IMG/VR virus record: IMGVR_UViG_3300028840_002623
Span: 1 to 64,000 of that record
DNA: 64,000 bases
DNA from: a virus
Reading direction: 5' to 3' (one strand)
Shown here: positions 3,264 through 33,852 of the stretch, piece by piece
Numbering within the stretch: the stretch's first letter is position 1
Layout: each line of letters starts with the position of its first letter
Program-made: the position numbers and the translations under genes
The notes under the pieces: generated by a model
Told to the model about the DNA's origin: nothing
Seen by the model: only the letters and a program-made list of their open reading frames with translations
Database searches by the model: none

Positions 3264-3970
3264 AAAAGGAAGCATACTATTTTTCCCACGATGCAAACGC
3301 AAGACATGACCCAAACATTTGCGAGATGAGAGCGGAATTTGGAATGGAAGGTTATGGATTGTATTGGGCTATCATTGAGATGTTACGGGAACAGGAGAAT
3401 TACAAACTGAGTATCAAAAGAGTAAATGCGATTGCTATGCAAACGTATTGCGAAAAATCATTAATTAAAAAATTCATTACTCAATGTATTGAAGAGTATG
3501 GGTTGTTTGAATCCGATGAGGAATGGTTCTGGAGTAAATCACTTTTGAGAAGGATGAAAGCACGGGAAGAAAAATCCAAGAAAGCCCGGAAGTCAGCTGA
3601 AGCCCGTTGGGGCAAAAATACGAACGCAATACGAACGCAATCCAACCGCAATGCTTTAAAGGAAAAGAAAAGAAAGGAAAGTAAAAAGAGTCCAGAGAAA
3701 AAACATTCAATCAAAATCAAAAAGAAAAAACCACAAAGAAAAAAATATGGAGAGTACCAACATGTGTTGTTAACTCCATCCCAATATAAAAACCTTCTCA
3801 AGAAATGGGGTCAAAAGAAATTGGACTTCATGATTAAAAGATTGGATGAAGGAATTGAAATGAAAGGTTACAGTTACAAGAACCATAACTTGGCAATACA
3901 AAATTGGGAAAAGAGACAAACGGATATTCCAAACAGTGAACCAACTGAATATGATATTGAGGATGAATAA
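3260..3970 (+). CDS. Replication-initiation-like protein, Lin1244/DUF4373-type N-terminus (236 aa)
   Basis: The first ~100 residues (YYFSHDANARHD, then FGMEGYGLYWAIIEML) match the Lin1244/Lin1753-like domain found in many phage DnaD-type replication proteins. This is a winged-helix-like module thought to bind DNA near the origin. A long Lys/Arg/Glu linker (about 105-165) follows, then a short C-terminal helical segment. Its position between primase and DnaB-like helicase fits a helicase-loader or initiator role. Overlaps both neighbours by 1-4 nt. The domain call is fairly secure, the role inferred. Confidence 0.7.
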   Translation: MKKEAYYFSHDANARHDPNICEMRAEFGMEGYGLYWAIIEMLREQENYKLSIKRVNAIAMQTYCEKSLIKKFITQCIEEYGLFESDEEWFWSKSLLRRMKAREEKSKKARKSAEARWGKNTNAIRTQSNRNALKEKKRKESKKSPEKKHSIKIKKKKPQRKKYGEYQHVLLTPSQYKNLLKKWGQKKLDFMIKRLDEGIEMKGYSYKNHNLAIQNWEKRQTDIPNSEPTEYDIEDE

Positions 3971-5385
3971 TGAAACGGGAAAAAGTCAACTCCATTGTTG
4001 AAGAAAAGATTATCACCGGAATGATAACATCCAAAGAGTTTTTGTCCCAGATAGCACCGGGGCTGGACGTGAATCTATTTTCAGCGAACCATTTCAGGAC
4101 AATAGCCGGATGGTGCGTAAAATATTTCAACCGATATCAAAAGGCTCCAGCACAGGAAATAGAAACAATGTACCACTCTTGGGTTGAGAAGGGGAAAGCG
4201 AAAGAGGAAGTTGTTGAAGCCGTTCACGATGTGTTAGAAAAACTTTCTGAGGATTATGATGACTCCACCCCTTCCAATATTCCGTACCTATTGGATGAAG
4301 CGTCTGAACACCTTTCTTTGCGCAAAATAGAGGTTTTACGGGATACACTGGATATATCCCTGTTAGAGAAAGATTGCCGTTCAGCAGAGACACATGTTAA
4401 TTCATTCCGTAACATCAAGTTGGGGGCAAATACAGGCATAGATATGTTTGCGGACACTGAAGCCCTTAAAACAGCTTTCTCCGAACAGCAAAAACCGCTG
4501 TTTTCCGTTGGGGATGTAGGGTGTCAAAGATTCTGGCAACACGCATTATGCCGGGACAACCTGATTGGGATTCTTGCCCCGGAGAAAAGAGGGAAGACAT
4601 TTTGGTGTTGCGAGTTTTCAATCCGGGCTTTAATGGCACGGAGAAAAGTTGCGATGTTCCAAGTTGGAGATATGAGTCAGAACCAAATCCTGAAAAGGAT
4701 GGCGGTGCGAATAACCGGAAAGCCGATGTTCAAGAATCAGTGCGGCTACATTAGTGTGCCCAAAAGAATAATCAAACAGGACAATGGGCGTGTCCGGGTA
4801 AAAAGAAAACAAATCAAAGCCGAACATCCTGTGTCGGAAAAAGCCAGCGCAGAAGCAATTAAAAAGTTTCAACGGAGATTTGGCATCTCAAACAAGCATC
4901 CAAGTTTTATGATTAGTTGTCATCCCAACTCTTCAGTTAATGTCCAAGACATATTCGGGATATTGGAGAAATGGGAATATGAAAATGATTTCGTGCCTGA
5001 CGTTATCATTATTGATTACGCAGACATTCTTGCCCCTGAACCCAACTCCGGGGGTTATGATAGCAGGGACAAGATAAATGAAACTTGGAAAGCGTTGAGA
5101 AGGCTGAGCCAAGAAAAACATTGCTTGGTAATTGCTCCAACGCAAGCAGATGCCGCTTCATATGACCTTGAAACTATCACGGCAAAAAACTTCTCAGAAG
5201 ACAAACGCAAATTGTCCCACGTTACAGGAATGTTAGGATTGAACCAAAACCCGGAAGAAAAGCAAGCCGGGATAATGAGATTGAATTGGGTTGTTTTACG
5301 TGAAGCCCCGTTTTCAACTGACAAATGCTTATACGTTGGTCAGTGCCTTGCACTTGCCCGTTCCTTCTGTTGCGGTTATTATTGA
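3970..5385 (+). CDS. dnaB: DnaB-like replicative helicase (471 aa)
   Basis: Two-part architecture of DnaB: an all-helical N-terminal domain (about 1-150), then a RecA-like motor. The Walker A is APEKRGKT (203-210), where the usual leading Gly is Ala. The Walker B is VIIIDYADIL (Asp349). IIDYAD and the later APTQAD are typical of phage DnaB-like helicases. It should unwind DNA at the fork with the primase encoded at 2376. The N-terminus overlaps the preceding stop by 1 nt. The unusual C-terminus (ends CCGYY) is followed immediately by a 33-codon reading frame. Confidence 0.87.
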   Translation: MKREKVNSIVEEKIITGMITSKEFLSQIAPGLDVNLFSANHFRTIAGWCVKYFNRYQKAPAQEIETMYHSWVEKGKAKEEVVEAVHDVLEKLSEDYDDSTPSNIPYLLDEASEHLSLRKIEVLRDTLDISLLEKDCRSAETHVNSFRNIKLGANTGIDMFADTEALKTAFSEQQKPLFSVGDVGCQRFWQHALCRDNLIGILAPEKRGKTFWCCEFSIRALMARRKVAMFQVGDMSQNQILKRMAVRITGKPMFKNQCGYISVPKRIIKQDNGRVRVKRKQIKAEHPVSEKASAEAIKKFQRRFGISNKHPSFMISCHPNSSVNVQDIFGILEKWEYENDFVPDVIIIDYADILAPEPNSGGYDSRDKINETWKALRRLSQEKHCLVIAPTQADAASYDLETITAKNFSEDKRKLSHVTGMLGLNQNPEEKQAGIMRLNWVVLREAPFSTDKCLYVGQCLALARSFCCGYY

Positions 5386-5501: not shown

Positions 5502-6035
5502 ATGGCAAAACCGAGCAAGAAAGTTGTATTGGCGATTTTGGACAAACTGAGTCTGGAGCATTCCTCAAAAATAACGCTTGAGCGTGCTCAGAAAAAACTT
5601 GAAGAAGCGATTGAGAGTGGAGGCATCCCGGAAGATGTCAACCTCACTGCCGCAGAAATCAAGGGGCTGGAACAGATGGGCTTTGAAATTGATATGGATG
5701 AAGAGCCTGAGCCCACAGACGCAGACCTGGATGAGATTGAGGATGAAGAACCTGCTCCGGCTAAAAAGAAGAAAGAGAAAAAGAAGAAAGAGCCCAAAGC
5801 CAAGAAGGAAAAAAAGCCGACAAAGAAAAGCAGGAGAACAATCACGTGCGACATCCTCAAGAAGAAAAAGAATCACTCAATGGAAGCCCTGATTGATGAT
5901 GCGAATAATGCATATGCGGAACAGGGTGGAAAAGACAACCACAAAGAAGCGGCATTCATTGTCCACCGGGTTGTTGACATCCTTGAGGATTTCGGAGTGC
6001 TGGAACGTAATGAGGATAAAATTAAAATCTCATAA
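5502..6035 (+). CDS. Hypothetical charged protein with C-terminal winged-helix-like domain (177 aa)
   Basis: Good AAAGGAG site before ATG 5502. Three parts are visible: an N-terminal helical segment (1-65), a highly charged Asp/Glu then Lys-rich linker (66-118), and a compact C-terminal segment (ITCDILKKKKNHSMEALIDD to the end) with helix-helix-strand periodicity, like a small winged helix. Such acidic/basic linkers are common in phage DNA-associated proteins. The stop overlaps the radical-SAM gene start (TAATG). Function unknown; a DNA-binding accessory role is a guess. Confidence 0.6.
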   Translation: MAKPSKKVVLAILDKLSLEHSSKITLERAQKKLEEAIESGGIPEDVNLTAAEIKGLEQMGFEIDMDEEPEPTDADLDEIEDEEPAPAKKKKEKKKKEPKAKKEKKPTKKSRRTITCDILKKKKNHSMEALIDDANNAYAEQGGKDNHKEAAFIVHRVVDILEDFGVLERNEDKIKIS

Positions 6036-7105
6036 TGAAGCGTTATAAATCTGCAGTGGGCATTAGGGGTGATTGTCTCTATTGCCCACTGCCACTTTCT
6101 ATAGATGGCTATTGGAATTGCGAACCCAATTGCCATCATTGTCCATTTCGGAGATTGAACCGGACATGGGGACAGGATTTGAGACCTGCTGACCCGGATG
6201 CCATTGCCCGGAAGTTAGAAAATGGACTGAAGAATAACAACCCCAAATCCGGGCTTGCTTATGCCTTGAAATTAAAAAAGACAATTCGGATTGGAAGCCG
6301 TACTGACCCCTTCCAACCTGCAGAAATAAAACACGGAGTGGTAAAGGAAATAATCAGGACACTTATCAAGTTGGAATGGACCTTTGTAATCCAAACCCGG
6401 TTTTTGCATAACCTGATTGAATACAAACCGCTGTTAGAGAAAGCCCGGAAGAAAAACCTCATAACAATCCTGCCTATAATTTCCCCCGGCTTGGATTGGG
6501 ATTTCTCCTTGCTGGAAAGAAAAACGACAACACCCATATCTGACCGGGGGAAAATCATCAAACAGTTATTGAAAAGAGATTTCCCGTTGGGGGTGAATGG
6601 AGAGCCATTCATACCCGGACACCATACAACGGAGATGTTCGCTGAAACAATAGATTGGTTGAAGAATATCGGAGTCAAGAGTTACAACACCTACAACCTA
6701 CACTTCAATGACGATGTCGCAAAGAAGATGCACGCCATTGGTTGCGATATAGAAAAGATTTGGGAAATGAATCAAGACCATCAATGGAGAATAATTCATC
6801 AACAACTTTGCCAGATTGCTCTTGAGAAGGGGATGAGGCTTGGTTGCCCGGATTTCGTCAATACGGGCTGGGGATGGAAAGAGAAAGCGAACACCTGTTG
6901 CGGAATAAATGTGCCCAACCCTTCCCGGTTCAACGCTCATAATTGGAAACACCTCATACAAAAAGGCTTGAGCCCGAAAGAAGCATATCAAAAAACTTGG
7001 GAAGGAATTGGCGACAGGGAGACAGCTCAAAAAATTCTCAGAGGTAACAAATGTGAATTCTATACCATAAAGGATATTGCAAATGAAAATCAAAGCCAAG
7101 AATAA
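6035..7105 (+). CDS. Radical SAM protein 1, SPL/COG1533-like (356 aa)
   Basis: The canonical CX3CX2C radical-SAM motif is present as C29-EPN-C33-HH-C36, which would ligate the [4Fe-4S] cluster that cleaves S-adenosylmethionine. The segment IRIGSRTDPFQPAE is the second-strand signature of the spore-photoproduct-lyase-like group. Extra cysteines (CLYC at 14-17, GCPDF, and TCC near residues 285-295) could hold an auxiliary cluster or bind substrate. It is the first gene of a cassette with a methyltransferase-like protein and a second enzyme of the same group, inside the replication operon. A DNA substrate is inferred from that context; a UV-lesion repair role is an alternative. Confidence 0.8.
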   Translation: MKRYKSAVGIRGDCLYCPLPLSIDGYWNCEPNCHHCPFRRLNRTWGQDLRPADPDAIARKLENGLKNNNPKSGLAYALKLKKTIRIGSRTDPFQPAEIKHGVVKEIIRTLIKLEWTFVIQTRFLHNLIEYKPLLEKARKKNLITILPIISPGLDWDFSLLERKTTTPISDRGKIIKQLLKRDFPLGVNGEPFIPGHHTTEMFAETIDWLKNIGVKSYNTYNLHFNDDVAKKMHAIGCDIEKIWEMNQDHQWRIIHQQLCQIALEKGMRLGCPDFVNTGWGWKEKANTCCGINVPNPSRFNAHNWKHLIQKGLSPKEAYQKTWEGIGDRETAQKILRGNKCEFYTIKDIANENQSQE

Positions 7106-7760
7106 CCGATTCAGTTTGGAACTAAAAATTCCAAGGAGTTGTGAGGCGACATATCCAAGTCTCAGAAAGTTAAAAAGAGGAAACACCCAAGAGTCAGAAG
7201 ACAAGTTGAACGGGGTTTGGACCTTGTTAAAAGGATGTCAGGTGAAGGGAAAGCGATATCACGAACCTTTTGGGGGTATAGGTTTGAGTGCGCAGGTGGC
7301 TAATTCACTCAGTATGAGCGTTTCAGTCAATGAGTTGGACTCCGGGTTGTATTCTTTCCTCTGTGAGCAATACGATGAAGTAACAAATGAGGATGCGGAC
7401 AAACTAATAATGGACCGGGTGCCATTCCGGTTTTTTGACCGCAACCATTTTACCTTCAACCATATTGGTCCGGCTTTCAATGAAGCCCTTATCAAAACGA
7501 CCAAGGTGCTCTTGTACACCGATGTGTTCCCATTTTCGCTGAAGCCATTTGATATGCTGAAACTAAAATTGTACTTGAAAAGATGTAAAGCCCGAATGGA
7601 AAAGGAAGGTTGGTATATACAAAAAGTTTTTCTGTATCGCAACCGCCACGTGATGATAGTAAAGATGACAAAAAATAAAAGTAAAAAACAGATAATAAAA
7701 GTAGAAACAGAACCGACAGACCCATTTGAAATGACAATTGATATAGGATTGTTCGGATGA
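7083..7760 (+). CDS. Rossmann methyltransferase-like protein (225 aa)
   Basis: EPFGGIGLSA (61-70) resembles the SAM-binding motif I of D12/Dam-type adenine methyltransferases, and VNELD (82-86) the acidic residue after strand 2. At the expected motif IV position the sequence is LLYTDVFPFS rather than DPPY/DPPF, so classic N6-adenine transfer is doubtful. The C-terminal FLYRNRHVMIVKM fits the last strands of this fold. ATG 7083 has AAGGA 9 nt upstream. Overlaps both radical-SAM genes (23 and 4 nt), so the three are translationally linked. It could bind SAM or a base without methylating. Confidence 0.55.
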   Translation: MKIKAKNNRFSLELKIPRSCEATYPSLRKLKRGNTQESEDKLNGVWTLLKGCQVKGKRYHEPFGGIGLSAQVANSLSMSVSVNELDSGLYSFLCEQYDEVTNEDADKLIMDRVPFRFFDRNHFTFNHIGPAFNEALIKTTKVLLYTDVFPFSLKPFDMLKLKLYLKRCKARMEKEGWYIQKVFLYRNRHVMIVKMTKNKSKKQIIKVETEPTDPFEMTIDIGLFG

Positions 7761-9178
7761 ACTATTATGAACTCAGGGATTTGATAACGGAAAAACTTGC
7801 TTACAGTTTTATGCCCAACAGACTGTACAAGGAAAAACGCCACCAGAGAGCGGTGGAAGAAAAAGGAAGAAAAACCGATTATATGGAATACAAGTTGGAC
7901 AGCCCCGGTGTGGCTGTTCCGCAGGAGCGGTTATTGAACACAGAGGAAATCAATTCATTTGTAGAGGTAAGTTGCCGTGCTGCAGCGTGCCCTATGCCGC
8001 TCAATATTGATACGTGGGATGGGTTGCTTTGCCCGTTCAATTGTTTGTATTGTTTTGCAAACGCTTTTCGGGCATCTCTATACACCGCATTTTTTGATAA
8101 CAGTAAAACAATGGGCTTCAGGCATTGCAATCCTTCCATGTACAAAAGGGAATTGGAAAAACTCTTCAAACTCCGGGGAACAAATCCGCACGATGTCAAA
8201 GGAGATGTCGCCAAGGCTATTGCTTTGGAAATTCCTCTCAGGTTTGGAATCCGGTTTGAAGATTTTCTTGAAGAGGAAGGCAACGAAAAAATAGCGTTGG
8301 AACTGCTTCAGTATCTTTCTGAAGTAGAATACCCCACGATGATAAATTCAAAGTCAGCACTCTTGGGAAGGGATGACTATTTGCGAGCACTGTCGGACAA
8401 CCCGGCTGGAACGGCAGTTCACGTCACACTAATCTCCTCAAACAATGATGTACTACAATTATTGGAGCCGGGTGCACCTTCATATGAAGAAAGGCTTGAG
8501 GCAATTCGCAGTATGTCCCAAGCCGGAATCAAAGTTGTTGCCCGCATTGAACCATTCCTTCCCTTCATTTGCGACCAAAAGGATTATGTCCACCAATATA
8601 TGTTAGAGGTTTGGGCTGCAGGTGTCCGCAGTATAACGTTTGACACCTACAGTTACACCGCTAAAAATCAAGGCATTCGCCAATCATTTATCAACAATGG
8701 ATATGACTGGGATAGAATATTCCACATTGGATGCGAGAGTCAGGGCTTTGGTTCTATACTCTTGGGCAAGTTTATGGAGATGTTCCGGGATTTTGGATTC
8801 AAGTGTTCCTCTTTTGATATGGGGAATGTCCCGGATAATGATGACGTCATTTGTTGTGAGGTTGGTGATGTGTTCAAAGATTATGGCTTCAATTACGGCT
8901 GTACAGTTTATGCCGCACGAATGATTGCGAACCGGGGAAAGAAAGGCAAGACAACCTCTTGGAAGCATTTCAAAAAATGGGTTGACAAAAAAGGTGGCTT
9001 TCTTTCCAAGGCTCTTGAGAGTGAAGTACATATGCTTTGGAACTGTCGAGGGAATGACGCATATTCCCATTATTGGGCAAAAGGATTACAGCCAATGGGC
9101 TATGATGAATATGGAATTGTATGGGGGTCAAATCTTGAATATGATTTTAGGAAGGATTTATTGGAATGTCTAAAATAA
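7757..9178 (+). CDS. Radical SAM protein 2, SplB/COG1533-like (473 aa)
   Basis: LLCPFNCLYCFANAF carries CX3CX2C (C92, C96, C99). INSKSALLGRDDYLRAL and LEPGAPSYEERLEAIRSM are family signatures of SplB-type DNA repair photolyases (substrate-strand and EPR-S loops). ARIEPFLPF follows as in that family. An N-terminal ~85-residue extension precedes the barrel, and the C-terminal ~120 residues are distinct from the family core. Known members such as spore photoproduct lyase act on thymine dimers by hydrogen abstraction. It pairs with radical SAM protein 1 and overlaps the previous gene by 4 nt. Family secure, substrate unknown. Confidence 0.82.
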   Translation: MNYYELRDLITEKLAYSFMPNRLYKEKRHQRAVEEKGRKTDYMEYKLDSPGVAVPQERLLNTEEINSFVEVSCRAAACPMPLNIDTWDGLLCPFNCLYCFANAFRASLYTAFFDNSKTMGFRHCNPSMYKRELEKLFKLRGTNPHDVKGDVAKAIALEIPLRFGIRFEDFLEEEGNEKIALELLQYLSEVEYPTMINSKSALLGRDDYLRALSDNPAGTAVHVTLISSNNDVLQLLEPGAPSYEERLEAIRSMSQAGIKVVARIEPFLPFICDQKDYVHQYMLEVWAAGVRSITFDTYSYTAKNQGIRQSFINNGYDWDRIFHIGCESQGFGSILLGKFMEMFRDFGFKCSSFDMGNVPDNDDVICCEVGDVFKDYGFNYGCTVYAARMIANRGKKGKTTSWKHFKKWVDKKGGFLSKALESEVHMLWNCRGNDAYSHYWAKGLQPMGYDEYGIVWGSNLEYDFRKDLLECLK

Positions 9179-9969
9179 ATGACCGTATTGAAGCGATTTT
9201 CTCTCACGCAGTAGCACTACAGCAGGATGGGAGATTCAGGAACACTGTTCATTGTTCCGGGAAAATGATTCACATTATGAATCAAGACGTGACTGTGATA
9301 CTCCGGTTCCCAATAAGACAATACGAAACAGAGTTCAAACAACCAGTCAGTTTTTACGCCAACGACTATGACAGCAAACAGTTTGAAGAGCGTGACGGGA
9401 GAATTTGTTTCATCCAAGGGAATGAGGATTATGAACGCACCAAGAGTTGTAAAGTGCCCTCAACTCAAAACAAGAACCCGGAGAAAATCTGGAAGGGCAT
9501 CAAGATGGAAAAAGATATCAATTGTGTTCAAATAAAATCATCCATCCTCAGCCTTCTTGAAGATGACCTGTCACATATTGAATTCAGTTGTACCGGGGGA
9601 AAGTTAAAAGTGGTTCAGCGGAATATCTTTTCAGGAGCGTTGATTGAGATAGAAAAGAAAGCCGCAAAAGGATTGCTTGCTGAGAAGGATTCAACCGGAG
9701 ATTTCCCGGTGCTGGCGATGAGGACAAATGACTTTACAGCGTTGTTCTCTTTCGTGGATACAATCAAATTTTATTTCTCTGGTAATGGTTATATTTATTT
9801 CCAGAGCATTTCCAAAAAACTTAAAATGGATGGCATTGTCAGTCAATGTGTCTATGAAGAAATGAAAGGACAAGACGATGGGAGGAAAAAGCAGAAAGTC
9901 AGGAGGGGTGTCAAAGGCTCTGATAAACCGAATAAAGGGAAAAGGAAAATCAAAAGGAAAAAAGGATGA
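9166..9969 (+). CDS. Possible sliding-clamp-like protein with basic tail (267 aa)
   Basis: The body is mostly beta-strand and helix in an order reminiscent of clamp domains: an N-terminal helix before strands (INDRIEAIFSHAVAL), and a late FYFSGNGYIYFQSISKK followed by GIVSQCVYEEM. The last ~35 residues are almost pure Lys/Arg/Gly and should bind nucleic acid. A clear DnaN-type clamp is encoded two genes later, so this would be a second or specialised clamp, or simply an unrelated DNA-binding protein. Overlaps the radical-SAM gene by 13 nt and the next gene by 4 nt. Fold assignment is weak. Confidence 0.4.
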   Translation: MSKINDRIEAIFSHAVALQQDGRFRNTVHCSGKMIHIMNQDVTVILRFPIRQYETEFKQPVSFYANDYDSKQFEERDGRICFIQGNEDYERTKSCKVPSTQNKNPEKIWKGIKMEKDINCVQIKSSILSLLEDDLSHIEFSCTGGKLKVVQRNIFSGALIEIEKKAAKGLLAEKDSTGDFPVLAMRTNDFTALFSFVDTIKFYFSGNGYIYFQSISKKLKMDGIVSQCVYEEMKGQDDGRKKQKVRRGVKGSDKPNKGKRKIKRKKG

Positions 9970-10721
9970 TAGCACTGTTGAACCCCGCAACCTATTTTCT
10001 GACACTGGTCCAACAAAGCGGAAAAAACCCAAACTTTTGGATGAGTGAAGAATATATTGAGTTGGCGCAATTGCGTTGGCTCAATTGTAACGGAATGTTA
10101 CAAGGATTCAAAGATGAATTTGACAATTGGTTCTTTCCGTATTACAGTACATCTTCCAAACAATTTTATTCCTTCAACAACGTGACCGGATTTCAGAATG
10201 AAGAGGTTGGTGAGTTTTGGGATTATGAATTCATCTATGACCCAAAAAACTTTTTGGACTTGTCCGGGGGAAAATGGAAAGTGTTCCGAAAGAATATCAG
10301 GAAGCACCAAGACAAGTCTTGGGAATATCGGAAATTGGAAGACAGCGATGTTGCTGATGCTGGTGCCTTGTTGTTAGATTGGTCTTGTGGTAAAACTTTA
10401 TTTGACCCTGAAACCTTTGCCACATTCGTATTGTTCGGGGAAAATCGGTTTGGTTTATTCTTGGATGGAGAATTGAAAGGGGTGAACATAGCCGATACAA
10501 ATTGGAAATACATCAACTACCGGATTTGTTTTGATTCCGGGGAATTGTACTTGAATGAATTTCTGCGTTGGAAATTTTATACATCTGAATGGGTTCAAGA
10601 GCAAAACAAACTTGTTAATGACGGTGGAAGTTTGGGCTCAGAAGGATTGTACAGGTTCAAGAAGAAATTAAACCCAGTTGACATAAAAGGAATTTTTACA
10701 GGAGTTGGAAATGAAAGTTAA
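9966..10721 (+). CDS. GNAT-like acyltransferase, DUF2156-like (251 aa)
   Basis: FLDLSGGKWKVFRKNIRKH (near residue 95) matches the strand-loop-helix of DUF2156/FemX-like GNAT domains, where LSG-K-R-N contacts the acyl or aminoacyl donor. FGLFLDGELKGVNIAD and then INYRICFDSGELYLNEFL fit the central GNAT strands and splay. The C-terminal region of MprF, which moves amino acids from tRNA, belongs to this group. Here it closes the radical-SAM cassette and overlaps the clamp gene by 11 nt, suggesting group transfer onto DNA or a protein. The donor and acceptor are unknown. Confidence 0.5.
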   Translation: MIALLNPATYFLTLVQQSGKNPNFWMSEEYIELAQLRWLNCNGMLQGFKDEFDNWFFPYYSTSSKQFYSFNNVTGFQNEEVGEFWDYEFIYDPKNFLDLSGGKWKVFRKNIRKHQDKSWEYRKLEDSDVADAGALLLDWSCGKTLFDPETFATFVLFGENRFGLFLDGELKGVNIADTNWKYINYRICFDSGELYLNEFLRWKFYTSEWVQEQNKLVNDGGSLGSEGLYRFKKKLNPVDIKGIFTGVGNES

Positions 10722-11712
10722 CAGACAGGATTTTTTAAAGGTACTGAACACTGTTATTTGCGGAGCACACCGACAGGAAGTATTGGAGCAATCCAACTGC
10801 TTCATTTTCCGGGAAGGGTTGGTGACATCCTTCAATGGTGAAATACTTGCCACCGCTGTACTGAAAGAGTCACCCGGAGAATTTGCTGTCCCGGCTCACG
10901 ACCTTATCAACCTGATTGCGAAATTTCCTGACGATGAAATAGAGTTAACAATCAAGGGGAATGAGTTGATGGTTGCAGGGAAGAAAAAAAGAGCCGGGCT
11001 GACTACCCAAAATGAAATACTCCTGCCCATTGAGGACATACCTGTTCCCAAGAAGTTTGGAAAGATAAAAGAAGGGGTGATGGAAGCACTCTCAATGGCG
11101 GCAAAGGTTTGTTCATCGTCCAATGAGGATTATAGAGTGAGCCATGTACAGATTGCCCCGGACAAAATCCAAGCCACCGACAAACTCAGATTTCTCCGGG
11201 TTACAATTGACACCGGGCTCAAAAAGATTCTTGTTCCTGCTGGACCGATAAATGCCGTGTCTGGTATCAATATCACTTCTGTTTCGCTTACAAAGGGATG
11301 GTTGTGGATTGGTAACAAGGAAGTCAAGTTGGGCATCTGTTGCACTGAAGAAGAATATTATGAGGATGCTCTTATTGACGGTGTAATAGATATGGACAAA
11401 CCGAACATTGTACAACTCCCGGAAGAAATGGAAAAGGTTTTGGACCGGGCTTTGATTATGGCCAAGGATGATTGTACCCGGATGTCAAAAATAAAACTGT
11501 CAAAGAAATCCATTACAGTACGCACCCAAAAGGAATCCGGGTGGTATGAAGAGCGTCAACCCGTCAAGTACAAGGGGGATGATATGGAATTGATGGTTGG
11601 GCTTTCGCTCTTCAAGGATTTGCTCAACAAGACAAATAAAGCGTATGTGTCGCAGGAAAAGATGAAGATGAAAAAAGACAATGTTGAATTTCTTGTTTGT
11701 CTGGGAGAATAA
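10711..11712 (+). CDS. dnaN: DNA polymerase III beta-like sliding clamp (333 aa)
   Basis: DnaN-like: an N-terminal MKVNRQDFLKVLN helix, FSFNGEILA-type strands and FAVPAHDLINLIAKFPDDEIEL, which matches the beta-clamp domain 1 edge (…L..lik.lpd.ei.l). Three repeats fit 333 aa, slightly shorter than bacterial DnaN (~366). ATG 10711 has AGGAG 6 nt upstream. It would encircle DNA and tether the family A polymerase at 12896, loaded by the ATPase at 14677. A phage-encoded DnaN with a Pol I-type polymerase implies a self-sufficient replisome. Confidence 0.75.
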   Translation: MKVNRQDFLKVLNTVICGAHRQEVLEQSNCFIFREGLVTSFNGEILATAVLKESPGEFAVPAHDLINLIAKFPDDEIELTIKGNELMVAGKKKRAGLTTQNEILLPIEDIPVPKKFGKIKEGVMEALSMAAKVCSSSNEDYRVSHVQIAPDKIQATDKLRFLRVTIDTGLKKILVPAGPINAVSGINITSVSLTKGWLWIGNKEVKLGICCTEEEYYEDALIDGVIDMDKPNIVQLPEEMEKVLDRALIMAKDDCTRMSKIKLSKKSITVRTQKESGWYEERQPVKYKGDDMELMVGLSLFKDLLNKTNKAYVSQEKMKMKKDNVEFLVCLGE

Positions 11713-11714
11713 AA

Positions 11715-12899
11715 GTGCCGGGATTTTTTAAGGGTCAGACTACCAAAACCAAAACCCCGAAATTGCCTCAATGCGGTAAATGTGGACTGTATAAGGATTG
11801 TATCAGTCCCAAGATGGAAGTCACGGGGGCTGGGAACCGCAAAGTGTTGTTTGTCGCTGAAGCCCCCGGTGAAGAGGAAGACAGACAAGGAACGCAGTTG
11901 ATTGGTCCGGCAGGGCAGTTGCTCCGGGATGCGTTGGAAGACATTGATGTTGAGATTGACGACTGTTACACGACCAATTCGGTTATTTGTCGTCCACATT
12001 CAAAAGTAGAACCATACATGATATCCTGTTGCAGACCAAATTTGCTCAAATCTATTTCACGTATAAAGCCGAATGTCATTGTGGTGATGGGCAAGAGTGC
12101 CTTGGAATCATTGATGTTCAAGGAGTGGAAAAGAGATTTGGGAACCATAAACCGATGGGTGGGTTGGACAATTCCTTCCGGGCAGTACAACGCTTGGCTG
12201 TGTCCAACTTTCCATCCTTCATACATTTTACGAATGAATGAAGACCAACAGTTGGTCAGGATTTTTAAAGAACACCTCAAACGGGCTTTTCAATATGAAC
12301 GGAAAAAAGTCACCAGCCATTCACTTGAGTCACTGAAAAGCAAAGTGGAAATTATTACAGACACCCGGAAGGGTGGTGAACGAATGAAAGGGTTGCTCAA
12401 GAAGAAAGGGGTGTTGGCTTTTGATTATGAAACAACCGGGTTGAAGCCGGATACACCTGAACATAAAATTGTGTCTTGTTCTTTTTGCTTGAATGGAAAA
12501 GATACGTTTGCCACGATGATTGACGAAAGCAATATGAAAATGCTTTCCCGAATACTCCAGACACCCACGCTCAAAAAAGTTGCCTCCAATATTAAGTTTG
12601 AGGAACGCTGGTCACGTGCAATGTTTGGACACGGAGTGAGGGGGTGGGTATGGGATACCATGCTTGCCGCCCACTGTCTTGATAACAGGTCCAAAATAAC
12701 TTCTATCAAATTCCAATCCTATGTACACTTGGGCATTCCAAGTTATGATTCAACCATTTACCCGTACCTGAAAAGCGGAAGTTCAAACGGCATTAATAGA
12801 ATAGAACAAGCTGACAAGCACGAACTGCTAATGTATAATGGGTTGGACAGTCTGTTGGAATACCTTGTAGCGAAAAAGCAAAGGAAACAATTCAAATGA
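11715..12899 (+). CDS. Uracil-DNA glycosylase (family 4-like) fused to 3'-5' exonuclease (394 aa)
   Basis: Residues 1-190 are a [4Fe-4S] family 4/5-type UDG: cluster cysteines C20/C23 (CGKC), C92 and C105/C106, active-site motif A EAPGEEED (49-56) and motif B HPSYIL (167-172). Residues 230-394 are a DnaQ/Pol I-type proofreading exonuclease: Exo I FDYETTG (236-242), Exo II SNIKFEE and Exo III Y-x3-D-SLLEYLV. GTG start at 11715 with GGGAG upstream, 2 nt after the clamp stop. The polymerase domain follows as a separate overlapping gene, so uracil removal, proofreading and synthesis look like one split machine. The fusion is directly visible. Confidence 0.85.
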   Translation: MPGFFKGQTTKTKTPKLPQCGKCGLYKDCISPKMEVTGAGNRKVLFVAEAPGEEEDRQGTQLIGPAGQLLRDALEDIDVEIDDCYTTNSVICRPHSKVEPYMISCCRPNLLKSISRIKPNVIVVMGKSALESLMFKEWKRDLGTINRWVGWTIPSGQYNAWLCPTFHPSYILRMNEDQQLVRIFKEHLKRAFQYERKKVTSHSLESLKSKVEIITDTRKGGERMKGLLKKKGVLAFDYETTGLKPDTPEHKIVSCSFCLNGKDTFATMIDESNMKMLSRILQTPTLKKVASNIKFEERWSRAMFGHGVRGWVWDTMLAAHCLDNRSKITSIKFQSYVHLGIPSYDSTIYPYLKSGSSNGINRIEQADKHELLMYNGLDSLLEYLVAKKQRKQFK

Positions 12900-14287
12900 T
12901 ACCATATAAAATGAAAGCGTATAAATTGCTTCATAACGGAGCAATTACACTTGCTGAAATTGAAGGCAACGGAATCAAAATTGACTCCGGGTATTTGAAG
13001 AAAGCCCGTGGCCAAACGGAAAAGAAAATCAAACAGTTACAATCCGAATTGGAAAGTGGAGATGTCTCAAAGGTATGGAAGAAAGTTTTCAAGAGCAAAA
13101 CCAACTTCAACTCCAACGACCAATTGGGAAAGGTACTGTTTGAGGAATTGGAGTTGACACCCCCGGCTCTAACACCAACCGGGAAATATAAAACTGATGA
13201 GAAATCTCTCATGACGGTTGAACATCCTTTTGTTGAGGCATATTTGCGTATTAAAAAACTCCAAAAGGCTCTGACAACATACCTCAAAGGAATTGAGAAG
13301 GAAGTTGTTGATGGGTTCCTGCATCCGTTTTTCAATCTGAATATTACCAAGACATTCCGCTCATCTTCTGACTCACCTAATTTCCAGAACATCCCGGTGC
13401 GTGACAAGGAGTTGGGTGAACTAATTCGGAAAGCCTTCATTGCCCGGAAAGGGAACCACCTTGTTGAAATAGATTATTCGGGAATTGAGGTTTGCGTTGC
13501 CGCCTGTTACCACCACGACCCAAGAATGATTGAGTACATCAGTGACCCGGAAAAAGATATGCACCGGGATATGGCAGTGGAGTGTTACAAACTCAGACCA
13601 AACCAAGTGACAAAGGACATTCGCTTTTATGGTAAGAACTGCTTTGTGTTCCCTCAATTTTACGGAAGTGCGTATGTAGACTGCGCCAAGAACCTTTGGG
13701 AAGCAATCGGCACTGCCAAACTCAAGACAGAAGGGGGAACACCGCTCAAACGTCATCTGAGGAAAAAAGGAATCAAAGAGTTGGGTGATTGTGATTGGGA
13801 AGAAAAGCCCCGGATTGGAACCTTTGAACGACACATTCAGCAGGTTGAGAAAAACTTTTGGGAAGAAAGATTCAAGGTGTATGCCAATTGGAAAAAGAAA
13901 TGGTACTATGAATACATTGACCGGGGCTGGATGCTGACCAAGACAGGATTTATTTGCCAAGGCTATATGAAGCGGAATGAAATAATAAATTACCCAGTGC
14001 AAGGCTCTGCGTTCCATTGCTTGCTCTGGTCCTTGATACGGCTCAACAAGGAGTTGAAAAAGAGAAAAATGAAAACACTTCTTGTGGGACAGATTCACGA
14101 CTCAATATTGGCTGATGTTCCTGAAGAGGAATTGGATGAGTTTTTAATTCTGGCCAACAATGTAATGACAAAGCAACTGATGAAGAGTTGGAAGTGGATA
14201 AATGTGCCGCTGGAAGTTGAAGCGGAAGTTTGCCCAATTGGAGGCAGTTGGTTTGATAAAAAGGAAATGGAGATACCAAATGAATAG
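12896..14287 (+). CDS. polA: Family A DNA polymerase, polymerase domain only (463 aa)
   Basis: Pol I palm and fingers motifs: FRSSSDSPNFQNIP (154-167), motif A DYSGIE (193-198), motif B R243-x3-K247 then QFYG, and motif C QIHDSI near residue 400, where Ser replaces the usual Glu after the catalytic Asp. There is no exonuclease domain; both exonucleases are separate genes (11715 and 19041). Starts within the UDG-exonuclease stop (ATGA). It should copy the phage genome with the DnaN-like clamp. Motif B has one extra residue relative to E. coli Pol I, as in several phage polymerases. Confidence 0.93.
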   Translation: MIPYKMKAYKLLHNGAITLAEIEGNGIKIDSGYLKKARGQTEKKIKQLQSELESGDVSKVWKKVFKSKTNFNSNDQLGKVLFEELELTPPALTPTGKYKTDEKSLMTVEHPFVEAYLRIKKLQKALTTYLKGIEKEVVDGFLHPFFNLNITKTFRSSSDSPNFQNIPVRDKELGELIRKAFIARKGNHLVEIDYSGIEVCVAACYHHDPRMIEYISDPEKDMHRDMAVECYKLRPNQVTKDIRFYGKNCFVFPQFYGSAYVDCAKNLWEAIGTAKLKTEGGTPLKRHLRKKGIKELGDCDWEEKPRIGTFERHIQQVEKNFWEERFKVYANWKKKWYYEYIDRGWMLTKTGFICQGYMKRNEIINYPVQGSAFHCLLWSLIRLNKELKKRKMKTLLVGQIHDSILADVPEEELDEFLILANNVMTKQLMKSWKWINVPLEVEAEVCPIGGSWFDKKEMEIPNE

Positions 14288-28297: not shown

Positions 28298-28364
28298 GTG
28301 AGGGCTCAAGCCTTTTTTAGAGCCGTGGCTGATGAACTCCGGGAAGGCACTTGAGCCCCCACCT
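28296..28364. terminator. Long inverted repeat / convergent terminator
   Basis: Arm AGGTGAGGGCTCAAGCCTT (28296-28314) and arm AAGGCACTTGAGCCCCCACCT (28344-28364) are near-perfect complements with a 2-nt bulge and one mismatch, spacer about 29 nt. The first arm also contains a short hairpin AGGGCT-CA-AGCCTT followed by T6, an intrinsic terminator for the + strand. It spans the stop codons of the two converging operons. Confidence 0.7.
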
Positions 28365-29229
28365 GTTTGTAAAACTCAATTGTGTCTTTCAATCCTTCTT
28401 TCAAACTCAATTCCGGTTCCCAACCCAATCTTAAAATCCGGGAGATGTTCGCACAACTATGGCGAATGTCATATTGTAATTGAGGAACGTGGTCTACAAA
28501 TAATTTCTTCCCAGACACGTTCACTAACATCAGAAGCAAATTCAAGAGCGTATGTGACACCCCGGTTCCAACGTTGTACACTCCGGTATGTCGGGATTTT
28601 CCCATCAACATAAGAGCCTTCACGACATCCTTCACGTGAACAAAATCCCGGCTCTGCATTCCATCCCCGTTGATTTGAATTCGGTTGCCCCGGAGAATGC
28701 TGAGCGTGAAGGAAGGAATTGCGGCTTGAAGGTTCATTTGTCCCGGTCCATATACGTTGAAGAGCCTTAAACAAACTGTAGAAAGCCCGTGAACCCTTCT
28801 GTATAATCCGGTATAGATTTCTGCGGCACGCTTATTCACCCCGTAAGGACAGACGATGTTGTCACCCAACACTTCCTCTTCAGAAATCTTTTGACTCAGG
28901 CTATGCCCATATATAGCTGCAGAGGAAGTGAATATGAACCGGATATCTGACCGGGAATCCCGGCTTGCCTCCAAAAGGTTCACCGTTGTCAGTAAATCAT
29001 CCCCCAAAGCCCTTTCCGGGAATTCAAATGAAGTGGACAGGTTTGTTTCCGATGCCAGGTGATATACCACATCCATCCCGTCAACTAATTCACAACACAA
29101 TTCCCCGTCAGTCAAATCCATTCCGGTTTTCTTATCAGCCCCCGTGACAACATCACCTTGTTCCCGCAAAGCCTGAATTAAATGTCCGGCTATAAATCCG
29201 CTTGAGCCTGTTACTAAACATTTGGCCAT
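28306..29229 (-). CDS. NAD-dependent nucleotide-sugar epimerase/dehydratase (307 aa)
   Basis: Extended SDR fold: TGSSGFIAGH (Gly-rich NAD site near residue 7), VYHLASET, FTSSAAIYG (Ser) and the YGVNKRAAE Tyr-x3-Lys catalytic pair. Closest in style to UDP-glucose 4-epimerases and related 4,6-dehydratases. It makes a sugar nucleotide for the adjacent glycosyltransferases. Last gene of the leftward operon; its 3' end forms part of the inverted repeat. Exact substrate not readable. Confidence 0.82.
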   Translation of the reverse strand: MAKCLVTGSSGFIAGHLIQALREQGDVVTGADKKTGMDLTDGELCCELVDGMDVVYHLASETNLSTSFEFPERALGDDLLTTVNLLEASRDSRSDIRFIFTSSAAIYGHSLSQKISEEEVLGDNIVCPYGVNKRAAEIYTGLYRRVHGLSTVCLRLFNVYGPGQMNLQAAIPSFTLSILRGNRIQINGDGMQSRDFVHVKDVVKALMLMGKSRHTGVYNVGTGVSHTLLNLLLMLVNVSGKKLFVDHVPQLQYDIRHSCANISRILRLGWEPELSLKEGLKDTIEFYKQVGAQVPSRSSSATALKKA

Positions 29230-29858
29230 ACTGCATTTCCCTTTTCATCATACTGTTGTCCGCAAAAGCCTTCCATAGCCGGGTGGTCAGGAAAAGGAAC
29301 ACTTGGCCATTTAGTCTCAACGGATGAATGGCGTAACAGAGAATGTTCTATCAAAGGATGAACCTTGTCCCTGAGCCAACGCATATCTTTTACACGTGGT
29401 TGATTTCTCCGGCAAAGCCTTAAAACTTCCCGGTGTAAATGTTTGGGCAAAACTCCGCATTTGATTCCCCACATCCCACCGGACATTGGAAGCCGGGAGT
29501 GGTGGGGGTGGTCTTTCATTTCGTGAGCGTTCAACCCGGATTGTTCCCAAGCCTTCACTGCTTCTGCTTCCTTCACGTTCAACCGGGAATCAGAGTCACG
29601 AAAAATTACACGCTCACCTTTAATGTCCCAAGCGGCAAGAAATCTCCAAAACATTCCTGAATGAATCCGGCTCTTGGGTTTGAAAACAATTTCACAACCC
29701 AAATTCCGCAACTCAGTTGCAACAATTCCCTTCTCACAATAATACCGAATTGTCCACCCCGGAAAAATCTCAGGAGCCAATTGGGCATTGCATAAAGCCC
29801 CGTTGTAATAAACGGGAGAATTGCCATACAAACTTATACTGATTATTTTTTTAGCCAT
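29214..29858 (-). CDS. Glycosyltransferase-like protein (214 aa)
   Basis: GT-A-like features: an N-terminal strand-rich segment (IISISLYGNSPVYYNGALCNA), then VIFRDSDSRLN with the DXD-type metal/sugar-nucleotide site near residue 88. HSRLPMSGGMWGIKCG resembles the acceptor loop of small phage and bacterial glycosyltransferases. Overlaps both neighbours by about 15 nt. Donor unknown; could use the sugar made by the epimerase at 28306. Confidence 0.6.
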   Translation of the reverse strand: MAKKIISISLYGNSPVYYNGALCNAQLAPEIFPGWTIRYYCEKGIVATELRNLGCEIVFKPKSRIHSGMFWRFLAAWDIKGERVIFRDSDSRLNVKEAEAVKAWEQSGLNAHEMKDHPHHSRLPMSGGMWGIKCGVLPKHLHREVLRLCRRNQPRVKDMRWLRDKVHPLIEHSLLRHSSVETKWPSVPFPDHPAMEGFCGQQYDEKGNAVWPNV

Positions 29859-30472
29859 TCGTCATCATACCCAAAATTGTCAAAATCCGGTTCTGCCCAT
29901 TTTATGATATTGTCTATTGTCTTCTGGTCAGCGTATAACTCCAACAAAGAAAGCCGTTCAATTTGTTCGCCTTCCACCTCTGCTTGAGCAACAATTTTTT
30001 CCGCTGTTGTATTGAGTTTGCTTATTTCAATACCATCCTTCCAAAACGGGAGTTGTATCAATTCCTTCTCAAGCCGTTCAAGATGAACAATGTGCAAAGG
30101 CTGAGCCGGGTTCAACCATTCGGTTTGGTTCTGTAACAGCGGTTGTTTTTGGCGTTCATTTTCCGAAACACTTAACATCCATTCTGTAAATTTCGGAAAG
30201 TCATTTTGGGCTCCGCTCAAAGCCCGGAATTTGTATTGGTCTAAATGAGCCAACCGACAAGCACTGTACCAGATACTTGAAGCACGAGTAAATGGATTGC
30301 GAACAACAGTCCAACGGAAGTATTTGTCATAGTGGTCTACAATCCGATTGTTGTGAAACCCGGCTTCCAATAAACCATCTGAAAAATGTTCGTTCAGAAT
30401 CCGGTAAATGGTATGTGTCCCGGCTTTTGGCGTTGACACATAAACAAATCTTTGTTTTTTATTTATTCTCAT
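29843..30472 (-). CDS. Sulfotransferase 1 (209 aa)
   Basis: Carries both PAPS-binding signatures: 5'-phosphosulfate loop VSTPKAGTHT (residues about 12-21) and 3'-phosphate motif VVRNPFTRASS (near 56-66). Length suits the carbohydrate sulfotransferase-2 family (HNK-1/chondroitin type). These transfer sulfate from PAPS to sugar hydroxyls. Sits between a glycosyltransferase and a second sulfotransferase, with 14-16 nt overlaps. A phage APS-kinase-like enzyme is encoded at 60887. Confidence 0.85.
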   Translation of the reverse strand: MRINKKQRFVYVSTPKAGTHTIYRILNEHFSDGLLEAGFHNNRIVDHYDKYFRWTVVRNPFTRASSIWYSACRLAHLDQYKFRALSGAQNDFPKFTEWMLSVSENERQKQPLLQNQTEWLNPAQPLHIVHLERLEKELIQLPFWKDGIEISKLNTTAEKIVAQAEVEGEQIERLSLLELYADQKTIDNIIKWAEPDFDNFGYDDEWLKK

Positions 30473-31073
30473 ATTCCCACCTCACTCCTATTTCATCCAA
30501 ATTGTCGCACACCCATTCCAAATACCTTCCCGGTATATATTCCTTCCAATAACCGGGGACAACTTGACCAATGTGGTCACCGTGAACTTGATATCGGTCC
30601 ACTTCATTAAAACTTTCCAATACATCGGCTCTTTTTTTATTTTGCTCAACGCTGAATTTGCCGCTGATGCGGTGTTGAATATTCGGGGGTGTTATAATCC
30701 CAAATGTATCTTCAATCATTTTATAAATTGGACTGTGGTCATTATAAAACTCTTCATACCGGAGAATTGGAGCATGAGGACCAACAAGCATTTCTTCCAA
30801 CAGATTGAAACTCATTATTGTTCGCCTGACAACGGTCACAATATCATCGTCAACAACTTCCCTTTCATCTCTGTATCGGCTCATCCTGACTCTCAAAAGG
30901 GATGCAGCAACATCGTGAGGTTCACGGACAGATGCTATGACCATTGAGCCATCTGGCTCCCAATCTATGGGATGTGTTTTCGGAATGTTCATTTTTGGAA
31001 ACACCGAATCCAATATTTGCCATACAACAGTTGACCCACTCCGGGGTATTCCGCACATTACAATATCTTGCAT
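30459..31073 (-). CDS. Sulfotransferase 2 (204 aa)
   Basis: 5'-phosphosulfate loop CGIPRSGSTVVW (residues about 7-18) and 3'-phosphate motif VIASVREPHDVAASLLR. Different enough from sulfotransferase 1 to suggest another acceptor. ATG 31073 is preferred (GAGGGA 7 nt upstream; it keeps the operon's 15-16 nt overlap); a start 14 codons earlier would intrude further into the next gene. Confidence 0.82.
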   Translation of the reverse strand: MQDIVMCGIPRSGSTVVWQILDSVFPKMNIPKTHPIDWEPDGSMVIASVREPHDVAASLLRVRMSRYRDEREVVDDDIVTVVRRTIMSFNLLEEMLVGPHAPILRYEEFYNDHSPIYKMIEDTFGIITPPNIQHRISGKFSVEQNKKRADVLESFNEVDRYQVHGDHIGQVVPGYWKEYIPGRYLEWVCDNLDEIGVRWEYENK

Positions 31074-31663
31074 AAATCTTCCCTCAGATAAAAAGTGTTC
31101 CCTCCAAGCCTGCAAAACTCTTTGTAACCATTCATCTGGTACTTACTGCCTTCCATACAAACCAACTTGGGTGTATAGGAAAACAGATTCAAACTTTGCC
31201 ACGCTTCATAATTCATTCCTTCAACGTCAATGGATAGAAAATCAATCTCACGTGGACAATTATATTCCTTCAACACTTGAGTCAAAGGTCTCATGAATAC
31301 TTTTGTTTCAGTGTAACTCACTCCGTGATTTACTTCAGCTGATATTTTCACTTCCTCTTTGAAGGTGGAAACTTGTTCGCAACAATAGAAAGTTTTTTCA
31401 CCTTCTGTAAGCCCAATTGCGCAATTGACACAACTGACTTGAGGATTGTCTTTGTACATCTCCTGTAACTTCTCAAATTGGGTGGGCTCAGGTTCAATAC
31501 AAATGCCACCCCAGCCCCCGGTGTTCAATAACCGAATTGAGTTTGAATTCCAAAACCCATCTGCGGCTCCAACATCAACTACAAAGCCTTCATCTTGGTC
31601 TTTGAATAGCCAATACAAGATTCTATCTTCACCGTGCTGTCCGCATCCTTCACCCTCTTTCAC
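31058..31663 (-). CDS. FkbM-family methyltransferase (201 aa)
   Basis: FkbM signature: FVVDVGAADGFWNSNS (SAM site), CIEPEPTQFEKL (acidic residue after strand 2), and IDFLSIDVEGMNYEAW (post-motif strand). These O-methylate sugars or polyketides; beside glycosyltransferases it probably caps a glycan hydroxyl. Overlaps neighbours by 14-16 nt. Confidence 0.88.
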   Translation of the reverse strand: MKEGEGCGQHGEDRILYWLFKDQDEGFVVDVGAADGFWNSNSIRLLNTGGWGGICIEPEPTQFEKLQEMYKDNPQVSCVNCAIGLTEGEKTFYCCEQVSTFKEEVKISAEVNHGVSYTETKVFMRPLTQVLKEYNCPREIDFLSIDVEGMNYEAWQSLNLFSYTPKLVCMEGSKYQMNGYKEFCRLGGNTFYLREDLCKIL

Positions 31664-33190: not shown

Positions 33191-33852
33191 TTTTTTATTT
33201 CCTCCAATGGAGTGAAGTCATTCCAAAGCCTTTCCGATTCAGGCTTCATTGCTTCATTAAGTTGGTCCAGAGGCAAGGGAGTTTTTGAGTACAATCCTGT
33301 CCACGGGATTTGATGACCATTCCCTACATATCCGAGTGGCTTGTGAATGTAACCTTTCCACTGTGATAAAAAATCATCCAAACGCTCCCATTCATATACC
33401 TCTGGACCGGGTGGTTCAAGGTCGTGAATGATAATTTGTTCCGCCAAATCTCCTAAATGAAGGACAGCCGGAACACGACACGCTGTAAAGGTGTCTACAA
33501 AAAGAAGGTTATGATGTCCCAATCCTTTTGCAATGAATTCATAATACGCATTCATGGCGTCAAATTCCCCCGGTGGCAATTCCGAAATCCTGGTTTGATT
33601 TTTGGCTTGGAACTGCTGAACAAGCCACTGGTGTGATACACCCGGAGAATAATGGTGGCGGATTTCGGTTGCCCACCGGGGGTCATGCTCTATGGTTGTC
33701 AAATGTTTCGCTGACCTTAAATGAGGTGTAGAATAATTCCCACAGCCGCACTCAACAATTGTTTCCGGTTTCAAAACTTCTAACACGGCTTTGAGAAGGG
33801 CTTGATGTGAGCCCCATGTCCGTTCTATGTCCCATTTTTTAGTCAGTCCCAT
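33187..33852 (-). CDS. Class I SAM-dependent methyltransferase-like protein (221 aa)
   Basis: ETIVECGCGNYSTPHL is a Rossmann motif I variant; LTTIEHDPRWA gives the acidic residue of strand 2; HNLLFVDTF the later strand. ATG 33852 has AAGGA 7-9 nt upstream; an in-frame ATG at 33882 would enlarge the overlap to 44 nt. Likely a small-molecule or sugar methyltransferase in the glycan cluster. Confidence 0.6.
   Translation of the reverse strand: MGLTKKWDIERTWGSHQALLKAVLEVLKPETIVECGCGNYSTPHLRSAKHLTTIEHDPRWATEIRHHYSPGVSHQWLVQQFQAKNQTRISELPPGEFDAMNAYYEFIAKGLGHHNLLFVDTFTACRVPAVLHLGDLAEQIIIHDLEPPGPEVYEWERLDDFLSQWKGYIHKPLGYVGNGHQIPWTGLYSKTPLPLDQLNEAMKPESERLWNDFTPLEEIKK

Follow-up and report, generated by a model that had tools for sequence, protein, structure and literature searches.

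Known elaborate phage DNA modifications mostly begin at a hydroxymethyl pyrimidine. The cassette of phage M6 and the yuaviruses contains a TS-like hydroxymethylase, HMUDK, ADDT, the SPL-like radical-SAM (rSAM) enzyme gp053, annotated as 'DNA repair photolyase', and the PLP enzyme gp052, whose gene has those for ADDT, rSAM, HMUDK and thymidylate synthase as neighbours. In the PaMx11-type cassette the FAD enzyme gp47 adjoins a small acetyltransferase (gp48) of approximately 140 aa, with a thymidylate synthase gene (gp51) in the same cassette layout, neighbours in M6 layout, and a hydroxymethyl-dU entry gene. The reactions of the PLP decarboxylase, rSAM isomerase, flavin lyase and acetyltransferase are reportedly described by Lee et al. 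2022 ('Pathways of thymidine hypermodification'). Outside DNA, Elp3 pairs radical SAM with a GNAT for base modification (cm5U34 of tRNA). For the M6-like phage SN1, an rSAM and a PLP enzyme are listed within the thymidine-modification cassette (PMC9476957). In the CmoA/CmoX/CmoY system of Synechococcus phage S-B43, a handle is placed on a base in DNA via SAM-derived chemistry and a group is then ligated onto it, CmoY acting on the carboxyl handle in the 5-carboxymethylcytosine pathway (PMC12783734).

The locus described here lies in a stretch of 64,000 nt (the window) from a virus record of 69,880 bases, which is apparently complete since it carries a 134-bp terminal direct repeat. The preliminary description had claimed five serially overlapping genes between a helicase and a DNA clamp, and the ORF coordinates agree with this: neighbouring ORFs of the cassette overlap by 29, 4, 13, and 4 bases in series, and the gene of the DnaN-like clamp overlaps the GNAT gene by 17 bases (Table 1). 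The replication genes around the cassette include one for a UDG-exonuclease protein. The charged protein encoded upstream of rSAM1 is possibly part of the cassette; it matched no family above threshold. A weak similarity of this protein to M6 gp049 was also seen.

Table 1. Genes of the cassette and its surroundings (positions in the 64,000-nt window).
Feature	Coordinates	Strand	Basis and remarks
DnaB-like helicase	3970..5385	+	PHROG match 7e-36; context, left border
Charged linker protein	5502..6035	+	C-terminal domain conserved; very often directly 5' of rSAM1 or DUF362 in loci
rSAM1, SPL-like radical-SAM enzyme, 356 aa	6035..7105	+	Family matches, cysteine motif
MTL ('Dam-like'), divergent class-I methyltransferase fold, 227 aa	7077..7760	+	Predicted structure; accessory
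rSAM2, SPL-like radical-SAM enzyme, 473 aa	7757..9178	+	Family matches, cysteine motif
Second sliding-clamp-like protein (PCNA/T4 gp45 fold), 267 aa	9166..9969	+	Predicted structure; core
GNAT-type acyltransferase, LPG_synthase_C/DUF2156-like, 251 aa	9966..10721	+	PF09924 match slightly below cut-off; core
DnaN-like replicative clamp	10705..11712	+	Context; directly overlaps GNAT gene

Both rSAM proteins were found to match SPL-like (PA0069/Rv2578c) families and to contain an invariant CX3CX2C motif in their alignments (C29/C33/C36 in rSAM1 and C92/C96/C99 in rSAM2), as expected from the earlier claim of two SPL-like rSAM enzymes. The NCBIfam matches to PA0069/Rv2578c were weak and far below their cut-offs, and neither protein matched the sporelyase NCBIfam family that would indicate curated SPL membership. 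The motif and the family matches are common to SPL and the SPL-like COG1533 proteins (PA0069, Rv2578c), whereas the cassette rSAMs also have an invariant CP motif on the N-terminal side, an invariant CC motif on the C-terminal side, and fixed partner genes. Further motifs of rSAM1 are an invariant C17-P-L upstream of CX3CX2C and a C-terminal NTCCG. The two proteins were shown to be related to each other (hhalign E 9e-12). The best conserved cassette protein was rSAM2; most of the first 34 relatives were 55-62% identical to it, and its many invariant residues include C78, the cluster cysteines C92/C96/C99, and C366-C367. Inteins are usually located in essential active sites, and those present in the rSAM2 of relatives were inserted exactly at C92 and C99.

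The 267-aa protein was predicted to have the two-domain PCNA/gp45 clamp fold (model pLDDT 87; Foldseek PCNA E 5e-10), with a TM of up to 0.68 by target length against viral sliding clamps, so structure prediction and Foldseek bear out the clamp-like gene proposed for the set. The GNAT matched PF09924 (LPG_synthase_C) with an E of 9e-6 and 25.5 bits, 2 bits below the cut-off of 27.5. In addition, 10 of 23 members of the GNAT family matched PF09924 at E<0.01, and the motifs FRKNxRKWP and VNDGGxLGxxGLERFKDKLNP were conserved. A PDB profile search with the rSAM1, rSAM2, clamp and GNAT alignments gave no significant sequence relative. For the methyltransferase-like gene (MTL), the preliminary description of a Dam-like fold lacking DPPY was upheld in part. 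A class-I methyltransferase fold was predicted (AlphaFold pLDDT 90; Foldseek to class-I methyltransferases E 2e-8), and motif IV reads LDFDxFTL/FDRNHFTF, with no DPPY, across the 18 aligned family members. The identification as 'Dam' was rejected as too specific, the fold being generic class-I, DPPY missing, and no Pfam match, hence no MethyltransfD12 domain match, being obtained. Nor is MTL a constant partner: 18 of about 80 loci carry it, and it is a swappable accessory outside the conserved core.

The arrangement is not due to chance: the core order rSAM1, rSAM2, second clamp, GNAT recurs in dozens of IMG/VR virus contigs and was kept even where DnaN was only 22-33% identical. Singly occurring genes had been named beforehand as evidence against the proposal and were looked for: among 160 further IMG/VR loci fetched by GNAT, rSAM1 and clamp alignments, many of which share contigs, the linkage held, as 142 carried rSAM2, clamp and GNAT and every one of the remaining 18 was cut off by a contig end. 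This linkage partly reflects descent, since the related loci represent one virus assemblage. No cultivated representative and no host were found, as neither rSAM2 nor the GNAT had a tblastn match among 50,697 phage records and the GTDB genomes yielded only two MAG contigs. A search of the literature retrieved no paper describing this cassette, and the statement that no known pathway has this set holds within what could be searched.

In relatives, the accessory slot was found to be occupied by a PLP enzyme, an aldo/keto reductase (AKR), an FAD oxidoreductase or DUF362, and occasionally by an amidoligase (inside the cassette of locus L003) or a TAGT glycosyltransferase (Pfam E 3e-43; near that of L017). 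These accessories were repeatedly swapped, with at least 32 changes of state on the rSAM2 tree. The PLP enzyme, present in about 30 related loci, proved homologous to M6 gp052 along its full length, with 33% identity over 99% and an E of 5e-38, both sharing the conserved FSKxRG lysine and the FWNIG C-terminus. It gave 66 isolate-phage matches, mostly to M6-like Pseudomonas phages, but also to Bordetella, Rhizobium, Stenotrophomonas, Sphaerotilus, and Pseudanabaena phages. A homologue of the FAD enzyme PaMx11 gp47 was found in three related loci, each time alongside GNAT. The AKR was always accompanied by MTL or FAD (11 of 11; Fisher p 1e-6) and seldom by PLP, an association that is not significant after correction for relatedness because there are too few independent pairs; in phages, only generic and uninformative AKR matches were obtained.

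The record of this virus itself contains neither a PLP nor an FAD homologue, so its link to the known systems runs through its core genes and its relatives. Of the tailoring set of 5-hmdU-derived thymidine hypermodification it has an rSAM and a GNAT as candidates, and the PLP and FAD homologues belong to relatives only. It is like M6 in the SPL-like rSAM, in the position beside replication genes and, in relatives, in the PLP family. The gene order and the rSAMs are only distantly alike (rSAM1 to gp053, hhalign E 3e-9), and the constant core consists here of two rSAMs, the second clamp and the DUF2156-like GNAT, with no hydroxymethylase, kinase or ADDT. With PaMx11 the relatives share the FAD family together with a GNAT; the PaMx11 acetyltransferase seems to have no sequence relationship to the 251-aa GNAT, and the hydroxymethyl-dU entry gene of PaMx11 has no equivalent in this virus. 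In contrast to the C5-methyltransferase with Cx-SAM of the CmoA/CmoX/CmoY system (PMC12783734), the cassette would rely on radical SAM, and no counterparts of the three proteins were recognised in the window.

The known entry enzymes were likewise missing. HMUDK (PF18723) and ADDT (PF18724) were each found in none of 29 related records, with the positive controls M6, ViI, and phiW-14 detected in three of three cases for both. Thymidylate synthase (PF00303) was absent from this virus's own record; among the 29 related records it was found in 3 and absent from 26. TET/JBP (PF12851) as a source of hydroxymethyl gave no match in the 29 records, a weak result given that no positive control responded either. 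Absences outside the virus's own genome are soft, because most related records are fragments. Since the known finishing enzymes are shared and all known starting enzymes are missing, a new way to begin is possible.

In our view, the cassette probably serves a widespread group of uncultivated tailed viruses to hypermodify DNA bases after replication, by a pathway with a different and likely radical-initiated entry step. Compared with known thymidine hypermodification, this pathway does without dUMP hydroxymethylase, without amino acid:DNA transferase and without 5-hmdU DNA kinase. The analogy to phage thymidine hypermodification had been drawn before, and the PLP and FAD homologues of relatives together with the SPL-like M6 rSAM give it strong independent support. 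Judging from its fold and linkage, the second clamp, loaded by the viral clamp loader, would hold the enzymes on newly made DNA, where rSAM2 and rSAM1, with their cysteine motifs, would generate 5'-deoxyadenosyl radicals. These may activate a base within the polymer, most likely at the pyrimidine C5 or methyl position, where an amino-acid-like or alkyl group would then be attached, with SPL and the M6 rSAM as precedents. The side chain would be reshaped by exchangeable tailoring enzymes, MTL in this virus and PLP, FAD, AKR, DUF362 or, rarely, amidoligase or glycosyltransferase in relatives, by reactions suggested by the M6 and PaMx11 homologues. The GNAT might finally acylate the resulting amine or other handle, and DNA modified in this way would be shielded from host nucleases. 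A narrower version, in which the clamp-held rSAM pair makes the hypermodified base at the fork directly from a canonical base in duplex DNA, with GNAT finishing, is held tentatively, at slightly under an even chance. By analogy to T4 gp45, the clamp-fold protein could instead serve replication or late transcription.

Within base modification, GNAT could also stand at the start of the pathway instead of at the end, as in a split Elongator-type carboxymethylation, with rSAM and GNAT adding an acyl-derived carbon to pyrimidine C5 in DNA before tailoring. An rSAM plus a GNAT is the exact domain pair of Elp3, and GNAT is core here and not accessory. However, Elp3 has both domains in one chain and a different cysteine spacing, while the cassette rSAM and GNAT are separate genes at all loci seen, belong to other subfamilies and lie in a replication context. 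The GNAT resembles LPG_synthase_C and not the Elp3 KAT domain, and the PLP and FAD homologues work in amino-acid-based pathways. Thus, this order of events appears unlikely, even if the L003 amidoligase would suit a carboxyl handle in the way that CmoY does for 5-carboxymethylcytosine (PMC12783734).

A module for DNA repair, offered as the alternative in the preliminary description, would have the SPL-like pair reversing UV or other lesions, the clamp recruiting it, and the remaining genes as bystanders. SPL is a repair enzyme for thymine photoproducts that works on duplex DNA, the cassette sits among replication genes with a UDG-exonuclease protein, and the M6 rSAM bears a photolyase annotation too. 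That same M6 rSAM is, however, counted in a hypermodification cassette in the near relative SN1 (PMC9476957), and the sporelyase family is unmatched. Repair also fits poorly with the partner genes: PLP and FAD enzymes are hypermodification families, and neither a constant GNAT nor exchangeable PLP, FAD, AKR, amidoligase, and glycosyltransferase have a role in photolesion reversal, which makes this reading very improbable. It is also quite improbable that the target is not DNA but a tRNA, a small molecule or a viral protein such as the clamp. Genes for rSAM, PLP, AKR, amidoligase, and GNAT are indeed known from RiPP and metabolite pathways and from tRNA modification; against such a target, the cassette keeps a constant position inside the replication operon together with a second clamp, no tRNA gene was found in the 64,000-nt window and no obvious precursor peptide was seen, and the PLP, FAD, and TAGT relatives indicate DNA bases.

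A virus group known only from metagenomic data has tailoring enzymes in common with known systems but none of their entry steps, and possesses a conserved radical-SAM/clamp/GNAT core instead. This pattern suggests that side chains are built on DNA by a route not described before, which may be coupled to the replication fork. The gene set is small enough for expression and testing. If the narrower version is correct, a DNA hypermodification route would for the first time dispense with a 5-hydroxymethyl or carboxymethyl handle, and a whole family of side chains would be made in relatives via swapped PLP, FAD, AKR, and DUF362 modules. Such new bases would be relevant to evasion of restriction and CRISPR and to biotechnology, and might explain any difficulty in cloning or sequencing such viruses.

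ORF calling confirmed the five serially overlapping genes of the preliminary description, with the same coordinates, and established their replication context between a DnaB-like helicase and a DnaN-like clamp, beyond which a UDG-exonuclease fusion, a family-A polymerase and a clamp loader are encoded (see table). Several relatives showed a single longer polymerase ORF in place of the fusion and the separate polymerase domain. The source record of the window is a 69,880-base IMG/VR virus record that looks complete, since a 134-base direct repeat is common to both of its ends. Elsewhere in this genome, the APS kinase-domain protein and the sulfotransferase-like proteins possibly yield a sulfated product.

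Positions of the cassette genes, flanking genes and other genes of this virus in the window (unless another record is named), and related loci with variant cassettes
Feature	Position or loci	Remark
DnaB-like helicase	3970-5385	One flank of cassette
rSAM1	6035-7105	
Methyltransferase-like protein (MTL)	7077-7760	
rSAM2	7757-9178	
Clamp-like protein	9166-9969	
GNAT	9966-10721	
DnaN-like clamp	10705-11712	Other flank of cassette
UDG + 3'-5' exonuclease fusion	11697-12899 (+)	
Separate family-A polymerase domain	12896-14287 (+)	
Glycosyltransferase-like and NDP-sugar epimerase-like run	28306-35133 (-), 57546-59419 (-)	Among structural genes; two genes GDP-mannose dehydratase-like and GDP-fucose synthase-like by eye
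P-loop sulfotransferase-like proteins	29843-30472 (-), 30459-31115 (-)	By eye
1636-aa protein	46239-51149 (-)	Dozens of AIGxxA-type repeats; trimeric adhesin head/tail fibre-like by eye
APS kinase domain + cytidylyltransferase-like domain	60887-61645 (-)	
Amidoligase (PF12224, E 2e-29) beside AIG2-like gamma-glutamyl cyclotransferase (E 8e-14)	Genome record G000, 67162-68748 (L250:7162-8745)	Outside window
PAPS-reductase/DndC-like protein	L051:13290-14165	Between GNAT and DnaN
DUF362-type loci	L010, L034, L044, L048, L054, L075, L078	rSAM1 replaced
Intein-bearing rSAM2 genes	L027, L028, L031, L032, L051, L064, L068, L069, L072	Before C92 and/or C99

Families and folds were established for the five proteins. 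The radical-SAM enzymes rSAM1 and rSAM2 were shown to be paralogous (hhalign E 9e-12); their best curated families were the SPL-like PA0069 and Rv2578c radical-SAM families, with scores far under the family cut-offs. The CX3CX2C cluster cysteines were invariant in the rSAM alignments (20 and 19 sequences), and so were a CP motif upstream of them and a CC pair in the C-terminal region. The MTL showed no match in Pfam; its AlphaFold model (pLDDT 90) resembled class-I methyltransferases (E 2e-8) in general and not Dam specifically. Motif IV of the MTL is LDFDxFTL-like. For the clamp-like protein no sequence relatives were found in PDB or Pfam, and its model (pLDDT 87) had PCNA as a structural match (E 5e-10), along with viral sliding clamps. 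The match of the GNAT to PF09924 (LPG_synthase_C) fell slightly short of the threshold; among 23 members of its family, 10 matched PF09924.

The rSAM2 sequence and its alignment retrieved 77 IMG/VR loci and, from GTDB genomes, two MAG contigs; a search of 50,697 isolate phages gave zero matches. The gene order rSAM1-[accessory]-rSAM2-clamp-GNAT-DnaN was nearly constant among the loci. Scans with GNAT, rSAM1 and clamp added 160 further loci, many from the same contigs, and rSAM2, clamp and GNAT were all present in 142 of these, the remaining 18 being interrupted by contig ends. Constant linkage of the core (all cassette genes except MTL) is established. On three contigs (L104/L229, L124 and L178) a partner was missing from 1.4-2.9 kb beside a core gene; similar partner-free stretches were also found in intact loci with inserted genes, e.g., L070 and L078. 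In the first set rSAM2 identity (55-62%) exceeded that of the family-A polymerase (38-61%) and DnaN (22-33%) from the same loci.

In some relatives, rSAM2 contained inteins, often split, immediately before the cluster cysteines C92 and C99. Both sites were occupied in L028 and L069. Across the intein-bearing genes, many inteins were divided between two ORFs, in some cases separated by a NUMOD3/DUF559 endonuclease ORF. Inteins are usually located in active sites of indispensable proteins, and this placement thus fits an essential role of rSAM2 in its viruses.

The Dam-like gene did not hold up as a constant cassette partner, as other modules replaced or accompanied it in relatives: a fold-II PLP enzyme, represented by 30 distinct full-length sequences, an aldo/keto reductase (12) and an FAD oxidoreductase (3). 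In seven loci DUF362 and a second rSAM2-like protein (~395 aa) stood in for rSAM1, and none of the seven contained the PLP enzyme. Besides, an amidoligase was found in the cassette of a single locus (L003) and a TAGT glycosyltransferase in L017 (E 3e-43), with a weak match in L006. Accessory states changed at least 32 times on the rSAM2 tree and were hardly more clustered than shuffled labels, so the modules swap freely while the core stays the same. The virus studied here encodes MTL, and its genome contained no homologues of the PLP, aldo/keto reductase, FAD or DUF362 proteins.

The exchangeable parts were homologous to tailoring enzymes of thymidine hypermodification. The accessory PLP enzyme matched 66 isolate-phage records, mostly M6-like Pseudomonas phages, but also Bordetella, Rhizobium, Stenotrophomonas, Sphaerotilus and Pseudanabaena phages. 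Its homologue in phage M6 (gp052), which aligns from end to end and retains both the lysine of FSKxRG and the FWNIG terminus, lies between the amino acid:DNA transferase ADDT (gp051) and an SPL-like radical-SAM protein (gp053), followed by two 5-hmdU DNA kinase (HMUDK) proteins and thymidylate synthase. This radical-SAM protein and the PLP enzyme were counted in the thymidine-modification cassette of M6-like phages in the SN1 genome paper (PMC9476957). The accessory FAD enzyme matched 18 phage records including PaMx11, where its homologue adjoins an acetyltransferase, with thymidylate synthase a few genes further on. Such enzymes reportedly (Lee and co-workers, 2022) decarboxylate, isomerise, cleave or acetylate the thymidine-attached amino acid.

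The known attachment route runs from 5-hydroxymethyl-dU over a phosphorylated intermediate to ADDT. A set of 29 related virus records, with this virus among them, contained neither HMUDK (PF18723) nor ADDT (PF18724), while the M6, ViI and phiW-14 controls were positive. Thymidylate synthase was missing from 26 of the 29, again with this virus among them; the viral genes thus lack the known attachment route. A TET/JBP search, run without a positive control, gave no match.

Taken together, the cassette is likely to be a DNA-base hypermodification system, a kind of viral system already known. The entry chemistry would then come from the core, with the clamp-like protein holding the enzymes on newly made DNA. 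Side-chain synthesis would begin with a radical at a C-H position of a base, most probably C5 or the methyl group of a pyrimidine, and an amine or other handle may be acylated by the GNAT. Elp3, in which a radical-SAM domain is paired with a GNAT, is a second precedent, and on that model the GNAT would act early. A radical-based, hydroxymethyl-independent entry step is put forward more tentatively, as a serious possibility. The papers that were searched contained no description of the entry chemistry, a dedicated clamp, the two-rSAM core or this virus group, and there is a real chance that the entry reaction is new.
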